Part shown: positions 22,214 to 25,912 of the stretch, one piece after another
Layout: every line of letters starts with the position of its first letter
Numbering within the stretch: position 1 is the stretch's first letter
Assembly: GCA_903939115.1 (NCBI GenBank)
Contig: CAJAFV010000097.1
Location: 62,001-126,000, forward strand
Origin: an uncultured Geobacteraceae bacterium
GTDB lineage: Bacteria; Desulfobacterota; Desulfuromonadia; Geobacterales; Pseudopelobacteraceae
Reading direction: 5' to 3'
DNA length: 64,000 nucleotides
Made by a program: the position numbers and the translations under genes
The notes under the pieces: model-generated
Seen by the model: only the letters and a program-made list of their open reading frames with translations
What the model was told of the DNA's origin: nothing
The model's database searches: none

Positions 22214-22942
22214 TCAGCGACACACCTGATGCAAAAAATCCAGACTTTTCAACTTTCTGGCGGCATGGGTGGCAATTGACTCATCCAGCAGGAATGCTGC
22301 CTGTTCGAGTGCTTCTGCATCAAGTTCCAGCTGGCCGAAACGGCTGGTAGCCAGGCAGGCGCTCAGGCTTTGCAGGGAAGCCGACGAAATTTTACGGCCG
22401 GTTGCGGCACAGAAGCGACAGACCAGTTCCCCCCCCTGCTGCATAAGCGCCCCAAGCACGCCAAAATCTGCGCCGCAGCGGCAGCATCCCTCAAGTGAAG
22501 GACGGTAGCCAAGGATATTCAGTACATTTATTTCAAACATCCGGCGGTCGGATGCCACGCTTTGTCCGGAGTCCAGACGTTCAAGATATGTCGCGAACAG
22601 ACGATACAATCGTGGCAGCGGCTCTCCTTCCGGGGTGAGGCATTCCAGCAGTTCGCAGGCATACAACCCATGGGCAATCGCACAGAGTTCGCCCCGAATC
22701 CCTGAATAGAGTGTGATGACATCGGCGCTACGCAGAGAGGAGAGGCCGTCTTTGTAGTTCAGTTCGAGGTTAATCCGGGCAAACGGTTCCAGAGCAGGGC
22801 CGAAGCGTTTGCGACTATTGCGGGCGCCACGGGCAAACCCTTTCAGGCGGCCATGTTCGAGCGTAAACAGCGACACAATACGGTCACTCTCGCCATAGTC
22901 CGAATTTGAAAGCACGAAGGCTTGCAGCTTTTCTAGGTGCAT
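22214..22942 (-). CDS. recO: DNA repair protein RecO
   Basis: 242 aa. The N-terminal OB fold is recognisable (AFVLSNSDYGESDRIVSLFT, then GRLKGFARGARNSRKRFG). The zinc-binding part has CCRCGADFG and, about 17 residues later, CRFC. RecO loads RecA with RecR on SSB-coated gaps. It is the first gene of the long minus-strand block. Confidence 0.95.
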   Translation of the reverse strand: MHLEKLQAFVLSNSDYGESDRIVSLFTLEHGRLKGFARGARNSRKRFGPALEPFARINLELNYKDGLSSLRSADVITLYSGIRGELCAIAHGLYACELLECLTPEGEPLPRLYRLFATYLERLDSGQSVASDRRMFEINVLNILGYRPSLEGCCRCGADFGVLGALMQQGGELVCRFCAATGRKISSASLQSLSACLATSRFGQLELDAEALEQAAFLLDESIATHAARKLKSLDFLHQVCR

Positions 22943-22980
22943 GGTTGTCTTTCCTGCTCCTGCGGGTGCAAACGCAATGA

Positions 22981-23256
22981 TTACTCCGTGTTCTCTGTGC
23001 AGCTATCCGCCTGTATCTCTGCGAGCATGTCCAGAGCAAAGTTCTTTGCCCGCCCACCCGGAGCGATCATGCCGTATGCGATTGCTTCCCGCAGTTCCGA
23101 CTCGGTGGCCCCTTCCGACTTCGCGACCGCGAAGTGTTTTTTCAGTCAGGTCGGACATCCGACTGCAATGGCGCACCCCACTCTGATCAACTCTCGAACC
23201 CTGCCGTCAAGCACCTCTTCATACTCATAATCAAGGAATTTTTTTCGAATGTTCAT
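22981..23256 (-). CDS. AhpD-like (carboxymuconolactone decarboxylase family) selenoprotein, in-frame UGA
   Basis: 91 aa if the TGA at 23146-23148 is read as selenocysteine. The ATG at 23256 has GGGAG seven bases upstream. Residues before the TGA read RVGCAIAVGCPT and residues after it LKKHFAVAKSEGATESELREA, so the AhpD/CMD redox motif CxxCxxxH is present as C34-P-T-Sec37-L-K-K-H. A perfect 7-bp hairpin with a GGUC apical loop starts 10 nt after the TGA, with the loop Gs 18-19 nt from it, as required of a bacterial SECIS. The family reduces peroxides or disulfides. The last codons come from a CACAGAG repeat arm. AhpD-like CxxU selenoproteins are known in related bacteria. Confidence 0.88.
23118..23135 (-). 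promoter_or_regulatory. Bacterial SECIS element of the AhpD-like selenoprotein
   Basis: On the minus strand ACTTCGC-GGTC-GCGAAGT forms a seven-pair stem with a four-base loop beginning GG. The loop lies 18 nt downstream of the UGA, within the 16-37 nt window accepted for bSECIS elements. SelB bound here would direct selenocysteine insertion. Confidence 0.82.
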
Positions 23257-23530
23257 GGTGGTTCTCCCGGAATAAGTGTTTGTTCCTCTTTCGCTCCGAT
23301 GAGCCGTCAGCGTTAGTGCTCGTATAATCCGGCGACAATATACCATGCGCCTTTGTCGGCACCAATTTAAAAAACCTCTGTTTTTGTTGTTTACTCTTCT
23401 GCCGTTGAAATGTTTTACTCGAATTAATGGATATTTTTCTATAGCATGCACATCGGTATGAGGCCGGCAATGCCGCGCCGGGGTTTAGGGCCGTCCACAA
23501 ATAATCGCCTGACTCATAAAGGTTATCCAT
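23257..23530. other. Divergent intergenic region between the selenoprotein gene and mutS2
   Basis: This 274-bp stretch must hold the promoters of both genes. It is moderately A+T-rich around 23365-23450. I see no clear -35/-10 pair, operator or RNA structure that I would defend. Confidence 0.4.
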
Positions 23531-25912
23531 ATGATCGCTTCAGAAACACTCGTCTGTCTCGAATTCGACAAAATTCTTGCCGAAATTTCCCGGCATGCCC
23601 ACAGCTCCTGCACAACTGATCGTATCGGAAGAATCCGGCCGCTCACTGACCTTCAGGAAATCAGAACAATATCAGGGCGTATCGGCGAAATCCGCGCCCT
23701 TGATCTTGCAGGCATCACCCTTGCTCTGGGACATTTTGAGGATATCCGGCCATCACTTGAACGGTTGCAGCCGCTCGGGGCCGTTCTGTCGCCGCACGAA
23801 CTGCTGCTGTTTATTCCGGTATTTCGTCTCTATGCCGCTCTGGCCCGCCAATGTGCACACCGTGACGACATACCCCTGCTCCGTTCGATTGATCCCCCTC
23901 TGCAGGGCCTTCCCGATATTCTTGAGCCCCTCGTGGCCTCAATTGATGCCGATGGCAGCATCATGGACTCTGCTTCAACGCTGCTCAAAGATATCCGCCG
24001 TGCCAAACGTGGTCTGGCGGGGCGCATCCGCAAAAAAATTGAGGAAATTATCCGGGACAACGGCATTGAAAAATTTCTTCAGGATGATTTCATAACACAG
24101 CGTTCCGGGCGTTGGGTCATCCCGGTGCGCATGGACTCCAAGGGGATGGTCAAGGGCGTGGTGCATGATGTCTCCTCATCTGGTGAAACCGCGTTCATGG
24201 AGCCGCTGGAGATCATACCCTTTGTTAATGAGCTCGAAAACCTGACTGCCGAGGAAAAGGCCGAGGAGATCCGCGTCTTGCGCCAGCTTTCAGGCTGGTT
24301 ACGCGAGGACGCGGATCAAATTGCCGCTAGCTTTGAAACTCTGCTGGAGCTTGACCTGCTTGGCAGTATGGCGCGCTTTGCCATCGAGTTCGACCTGGAG
24401 CCGGCCCTGATAAATGAACAGGGTGAGTTACGTCTGGTGGAAGCTCGGCATCCGTTACTGTTAATGATGATGAAGCGGGGAATCCTGAAACAGGTGGAGC
24501 CGCTTGGACTGGAGTTGGGCGGGGGCAGGGGAGAATCTGATCCCGCCTCGGTCATGGTTATCACCGGTCCCAACGCGGGCGGCAAAACCATTGCCCTTAA
24601 GACGGCGGGAATGCTGGTGCTGATGGCGCTCTCCGGCCTGCCGGTGCCGGCGGGAGCACGCTCGACCTTTCCGCTTATTGATGCGCTTCTGGTTGATATC
24701 GGAGATGAACAGTCAATAGAACGGAGCCATTCCACCTTTTCTGCCCATGCTGCACGGATAACGGCCATTATTGAGCAGGGGGGCGTTGCCACTCTGGTGC
24801 TGCTGGACGAGCTTGGAGCAGGTACCGAGCCGCTGCAGGGGGCGGCCATTGCCTGCGGAGTGCTGCATGAACTGCAGCAGCAGGGCTGCATGGTGATTGC
24901 AACGACGCACTTGAGCGATATTATCGGTTTTGTCCACCGCTCTCCCGGCATGATCAACGCCGGCATGGAGTTTGATGATGCCAGTTTTACTCCGCTCTAT
25001 CGTCTTATCGTCGGCGAGCCGGGGCAGTCTCATGCCATAGAGATCGCCCGTCGCTTCGGCATGCCGGAACGTGTGATAGCCTTTGCCCGCCAGATGCTTG
25101 GCAATGCCGGTAGTGAGTTTGCCGGGCTGTTGACCGAACTCCGCCAGAAGCGGAAAGAGTTTGAAGATCTCCGCGCCGCTCTCAACGCGCGCGAACGCTC
25201 ACTGGATCTAAGGAGTACCGATCTTGATGCCCGGGCGGATGAAGTGCTCCAGATTCGCAAAGAGGCTGCCGAAAAGGGGTGGAACGATGCCAAAGAGCTT
25301 ATTTCCGCCACAAGAAGGCGTACCAACGCCCTTTTGGATGAGTTGAAGCGTGAGAAACGAAGCGACATCGTCGACGAGTTGCGGCAGGTCGAGACGGAGT
25401 TGACGGCACAGCTTAAGCCGGGCAACGACCAACCGGAGCTGCTGCCGCTAAAGTCAGTAAAGGTAGGTGATCACGTTCATATCCGTTTGTTGCGTTGTGA
25501 CGGTATCGTGTTGGCCGTTGATGAGCGGAGTGGCAAAACACGGGTCAGGGCGGGGCGGATGGAGTTGGAGGTGCCGCTTGCAGAGTTGGCTAAGCCGCTG
25601 TCAAAAGGTGACGGCAGGAAGAATAAGCCGTCAGCCGGAACCTGGCGCACCACTATTGAGGAAAGTGAACAGCGGGAGTTAAAGCTGATCGGGATGCGAG
25701 TGGAAGAGGCGTTGGCCGAGCTGGAGCCATTTATCAGTCATGCCGCCGCTGCGGGCCTGCAGGAGGTGCGGGTTATTCACGGCATGGGTACCGGTCGGCT
25801 GCGGGATGCCGTGCGGGAAGAGTTGGGCCGGCATCCGCTGGTTGAGGGATTCAGGCCGGGTGAACCGCATGAAGGACGTGATGGTGCTACGGTGGTGACG
25901 CTGAGGACATAA
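23531..25912 (+). CDS. mutS2: Endonuclease MutS2
   Basis: 793 aa, full length. The ATPase core has Walker A ITGPNAGGKT at about 342-351, Walker B LVLLDELGAGTEP, and the TTHLSD switch. A coiled, charged region of about 150 residues follows, then a C-terminal Smr nuclease domain with EVRVIHGMGTGRLRDAVREE. There is no N-terminal mismatch-recognition domain, which separates MutS2 from MutS. MutS2 suppresses recombination and, in some bacteria, acts on collided ribosomes. Confidence 0.96.
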   Translation: MIASETLVCLEFDKILAEISRHAHSSCTTDRIGRIRPLTDLQEIRTISGRIGEIRALDLAGITLALGHFEDIRPSLERLQPLGAVLSPHELLLFIPVFRLYAALARQCAHRDDIPLLRSIDPPLQGLPDILEPLVASIDADGSIMDSASTLLKDIRRAKRGLAGRIRKKIEEIIRDNGIEKFLQDDFITQRSGRWVIPVRMDSKGMVKGVVHDVSSSGETAFMEPLEIIPFVNELENLTAEEKAEEIRVLRQLSGWLREDADQIAASFETLLELDLLGSMARFAIEFDLEPALINEQGELRLVEARHPLLLMMMKRGILKQVEPLGLELGGGRGESDPASVMVITGPNAGGKTIALKTAGMLVLMALSGLPVPAGARSTFPLIDALLVDIGDEQSIERSHSTFSAHAARITAIIEQGGVATLVLLDELGAGTEPLQGAAIACGVLHELQQQGCMVIATTHLSDIIGFVHRSPGMINAGMEFDDASFTPLYRLIVGEPGQSHAIEIARRFGMPERVIAFARQMLGNAGSEFAGLLTELRQKRKEFEDLRAALNARERSLDLRSTDLDARADEVLQIRKEAAEKGWNDAKELISATRRRTNALLDELKREKRSDIVDELRQVETELTAQLKPGNDQPELLPLKSVKVGDHVHIRLLRCDGIVLAVDERSGKTRVRAGRMELEVPLAELAKPLSKGDGRKNKPSAGTWRTTIEESEQRELKLIGMRVEEALAELEPFISHAAAAGLQEVRVIHGMGTGRLRDAVREELGRHPLVEGFRPGEPHEGRDGATVVTLRT

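Follow-up and report, generated by a model that had tools for sequence, protein, structure and literature searches.

The 64,000-nucleotide stretch of DNA from an uncultured Geobacteraceae bacterium analysed here (the window) contains a small minus-strand gene whose 91-residue frame is interrupted by a single TGA at codon 37 (Table 1). Read from 23256 down to 22981, the minus strand translates as MNIRKKFLDYEYEEVLDGRVRELIRVGCAIAVGCPT-U-LKKHFAVAKSEGATESELREAIAYGMIAPGGRAKNFALDMLAEIQADSCTENTE*, where U marks the in-frame TGA as selenocysteine (Sec), while the plus-strand translation of the same interval is meaningless; a ribosome-binding-like GGGAGA is found upstream of the ATG. An earlier sequence-only reading of this DNA had placed both the interval and the TGA correctly, but it did not give the strand, which is minus. 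It had also proposed that reading through the TGA completes an AhpD-like C-P-T-Sec-L-K-K-H motif, and this is what the minus-strand translation gives, with E-x11-C-P-T-U-L-K-K-H around Sec37 and C34-P-T-U37 at its centre. Standard gene calling was expected to miss or truncate the gene, and the plain list of open reading frames does contain only the frame cut off at the TGA. The related remark that the gene is easily lost holds for such stop-respecting lists, but has lost some of its force with the NCBIfam model made for this family, NF041047, which the protein passes.

Table 1. Features of the selenoprotein locus, in window coordinates.
Feature	Position	Strand	Details
GSU3128-family AhpD-like selenoprotein CDS (predicted)	22981..23256	minus	91 aa; ATG 23256-23254, TAA 22983-22981; PF02627 49.7 bits, NF041047 143.6 bits
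In-frame TGA, predicted selenocysteine, residue 37	23146..23148	minus	TGA in 82/82 distinct relatives; coding conserved both sides
Conventional ORF ending at the TGA, as seen by a stop-respecting gene caller	23146..23451	minus	From the ORF list
SECIS-like hairpin	23118..23135	minus	7-bp stem ACTTCGC/GCGAAGT, GGTC loop; inner 6 bp conserved (23119-23134)

We note that recO (22214–22942, minus strand) begins 38 bases past the stop codon of the selenoprotein gene on the same strand, and that the two are possibly co-transcribed in the window. In a comparison of neighbourhoods, recO was found downstream only in the window and in three of its closest relatives, and no conserved genomic partner was found across some 60 related loci and the window, the neighbours being mixed housekeeping genes. 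As these vary from clade to clade, we draw no functional link from them. A rough screen for further Sec candidates across the window returned about 50 frames, apparently chance occurrences.

The read-through protein matches the NCBIfam model NF041047 (GSU3128 family (seleno)protein) over positions 1–83 of the 84 in the model (143.6 bits, 1.5e-42; curated cut-off 110 bits) and has the CxxU motif with an in-frame TGA that belongs to this family. It also matches the Pfam CMD family (PF02627; 49.7 bits, 3.8e-13, above the gathering score of 23 bits), and a search of the genome with the CMD model found the locus independently, with one TGA inside. Sequence-profile matches included the CMD structures 3bey, 7y4r and 5dik, and the AlphaFold model of the protein is confident (mean pLDDT 90.9), in keeping with the all-helical fold of CMD proteins. 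CMD/AhpD proteins were the top neighbours in a Foldseek search with this model, albeit with a best E-value of only 5e-3, such weak values being expected because the chain has only 91 residues. The assignment made from the raw sequence, an AhpD/CMD-family selenoprotein, is borne out. The protein also resembles the related AhpD-like selenium domains of NF041537 (the ArsM/AhpD double selenoprotein) and NF045649 (MduS), but these are large methyltransferase fusions and the weak matches of 39.6 and 35.4 bits fall far short of the respective cut-offs of 510 and 380 bits.

The sequence 3' of the UGA reads ctgaaaaaac ACTTCGC GGTC GCGAAGT, so that the stem begins at nucleotide 11 and the apical GG falls at nucleotides 18–19, exactly as had been described (a 7-bp stem with a GGUC loop 10 nt after the UGA). 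On the evidence of this genome by itself the hairpin is no more than moderately unusual, suggestive rather than compelling: a comparable 7-bp hairpin follows 0.8% of the TGA triplets in the window and arises in 7.4% of cases when the peptide is recoded synonymously. No Rfam family matched it in a search of 22700–23600 on both strands with E-values up to 1. Judged by its conservation among relatives, the hairpin is lifted well above chance. All six inner pairs of the stem are intact in 83/87 sequences, with a paired change from T-A to C-G in three of the 83, and a G is present among the first two loop bases in 76 of these intact stems. The perfect 7-bp stem reported from the raw sequence is present in this gene, but only six of the seven pairs are conserved, as the outer A-U pair occurs in just 24% of sequences. 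It is only in the six hairpin codons (+4 to +9) that synonymous positions are frozen, the top codon taking a mean share of 0.96 there compared with 0.62 in the rest of the gene (Mann-Whitney p = 5e-5), and relatedness is no explanation of this contrast because all columns share one tree.

The loop differs in the g7 (Trichlorobacter) clade, in which the usual apical GG at nucleotides 18–19 is absent. In four loci of this clade (L109, L070, L072 and L080) a displaced stem is possible, with GGCA as its loop near nucleotides 21–22, and seven others (L066, L071, L075, L082, L084, L087 and L090) keep the standard stem with a CCTG, CTTG or TCTG loop.

A family member scoring over the cut-off was found in 48 of the 76 genomes from the same bacterial family, with exactly one TGA in each (48/48), and a scan of reference genomes recovered 65 related loci in the Geobacteraceae and other Desulfuromonadales. 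All 82 distinct family sequences carry TGA at the Sec codon, none of them having a Cys or Trp codon there, and TGA is likewise present in all 21 matches of a phylum-wide search. Five distant relatives from other families of the phylum (66–71 bits) retain both the TGA and the hairpin. Ten loci seemed to be without the motif; nine of these do carry the TGA, preceded by CPD, and the tenth is N-masked. Invariant residues in an alignment of 24 sequences include E22, C28, C34 and H41 plus a distal AYG-IAP-GRAKNF block, and as invariant residues lie beyond the UGA, coding constraint continues past it. The sequence-only reading had staked its case on homologues not simply ending at the same UGA with nothing conserved downstream, and we find that the protein is indeed conserved beyond it.

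The five distant relatives (L131, L132, L133, L134 and L135) are CMD proteins from three other families of the phylum that score below the NF041047 cut-off. They have CxxU with a TGA, and their hairpin is nearly identical; CSHU or CAHU, which is nearer to the CSHC of classical AhpD, is found in three of them. Three lower-scoring CMD matches that also contain a TGA (G060:C1:1234191-1234322, G037:C38:61862-62002 and G006:C8:6860-7087) may be AhpD-like selenoproteins of additional types.

The genome from which the window comes encodes the full Sec machinery that the sequence-only reading had asked to be confirmed and whose absence would have told against it: a tRNA-Sec with a UCA anticodon, selB (346 bits), selA (609 bits) and selD (390 bits), all four scoring above their curated cut-offs, and the tRNA-Sec, selB and selA lying within 6 kb of each other on contig 70. 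Presence of the gene goes with presence of selA: of 53 good genomes in the family, 32 have both, two the gene only, 11 selA only and eight neither (Fisher p = 0.002, uncorrected for relatedness). Two good drafts, G017 and G027, carry the TGA gene and hairpin with no selA, selB or tRNA-Sec found (selD is present in G027 and absent from G017). These exceptions could reflect an assembly gap or a recent loss of Sec decoding, and one missing stretch of assembly could explain them because these genes cluster on one contig in G000.

Taken together, these comparisons indicate that the locus very probably holds a functional gene for a selenoprotein of the GSU3128 family (NF041047), a small, single-domain protein of the AhpD/CMD fold. 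It might be argued that the UGA is an ordinary stop, leaving a pseudogene or a 36-residue peptide with the downstream similarity as a remnant, since a stop-respecting gene caller ends the frame there and hairpins of this size do follow some TGA triplets in the window. We consider this extremely improbable: the 82 distinct relatives share the TGA with invariant residues downstream, synonymous sites are frozen in the hairpin codons only, and the full Sec machinery is in place. The conservation itself speaks strongly against an ordinary stop. We give as little credence to near-cognate suppression, in which the UGA would be read through as Trp or Cys. The inserted residue cannot be identified from sequence alone, but the position corresponds to the second of the catalytic Cys residues in CxxC, neither a Cys nor a Trp codon occurs there in any relative, the hairpin is conserved and the presence of the gene tracks selA.

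A different question is whether the protein is a selenoprotein with some other CMD-fold catalytic role, such as decarboxylation, in place of a peroxidase or oxidoreductase activity. True decarboxylases occur within the CMD fold, but we regard such a role as unlikely here, given that the protein scores 22 bits against PcaC (TIGR02425), far under the cut-off of 155.7, that the CxxUxxxH redox motif, with a Glu 12 residues ahead of its first Cys, follows the AhpD pattern, and that Sec is nearly always found in redox centres (PMC1794560).

The GSU3128-family protein is most likely a thiol/selenol oxidoreductase of AhpD type, by analogy with AhpD itself (TIGR00778 core domain; 1gu9 from Mycobacterium tuberculosis), with which it shares the CMD fold and the E-x11-C-x-x-C(U)-x3-H arrangement. 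AhpD has the residue spacing E-x11-C-x-x-C-x3-H, the same Glu-Cys-Cys-His spacing as here. The present protein differs in being about half the length, with one domain, in having Sec for the second Cys, and in having Thr inside the motif where classical AhpD has His (CSHC). From the anatomy of the gene, the genes present and the conservation seen, SelB with Sec-tRNA(Sec) would read the hairpin directly 3' of the UGA and insert Sec at position 37, in place of the second Cys of CxxC in AhpD. Sec37 and Cys34 would then most likely form a reversible selenenylsulfide, aided by Glu22 and His41. Hydroperoxide or disulfide chemistry seems somewhat the better expectation on the same analogy, and the protein may act as a thiol/selenol oxidoreductase or weak hydroperoxide reductase in the redox defence of an anaerobe.

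The family is already known. A 'distant AhpD homolog' selenoprotein was described by Zhang et al. (2006) in Geobacter sulfurreducens and G. uraniumreducens (PMC1794560), and a 2026 review has the entry 'Distant alkylhydroperoxidase (AhpD) homolog, NF041047, CxxU' (PMC13188914). The sequence-only reading had rightly presented the gene as a member of a family, with CxxU AhpD-like proteins known in related bacteria. Set beside this family (NF041047, that of G. sulfurreducens GSU3128), it has a full-length match, CxxU, the TGA at the same codon and a SECIS-like hairpin, with no difference of substance, and is another member from another species. The finding is correct, and is a sound, ordinary example of a family known in Geobacter since 2006. 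AhpD-like 1 (COG2128) and AhpD-like 2 (pfam02627) from the Global Ocean Sampling data share the CxxU AhpD-type motif, but Cys homologues of them were reported from those same data (PMC2398784), unlike the GSU3128 family, for which there are none here.

The analysis confirms that the raw sequence had been read correctly, and adds strong comparative evidence for selection on the family as a selenoprotein. The practical point is that gene callers which stop at TGA will truncate this gene. Most selenoprotein families have a Cys form, and the apparent absence of one here poses a modest question for selenium biology. As a tentative proposal, and one we hold to be rather doubtful, the GSU3128 family may be an obligate-Sec enzyme without a Cys form, with a SECIS nearly frozen across several bacterial families that has seemingly slid, in one clade (g7, Trichlorobacter and its kin), by some 3 nt. 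If true, the family would be well suited to testing what prevents Cys from taking the place of Sec.
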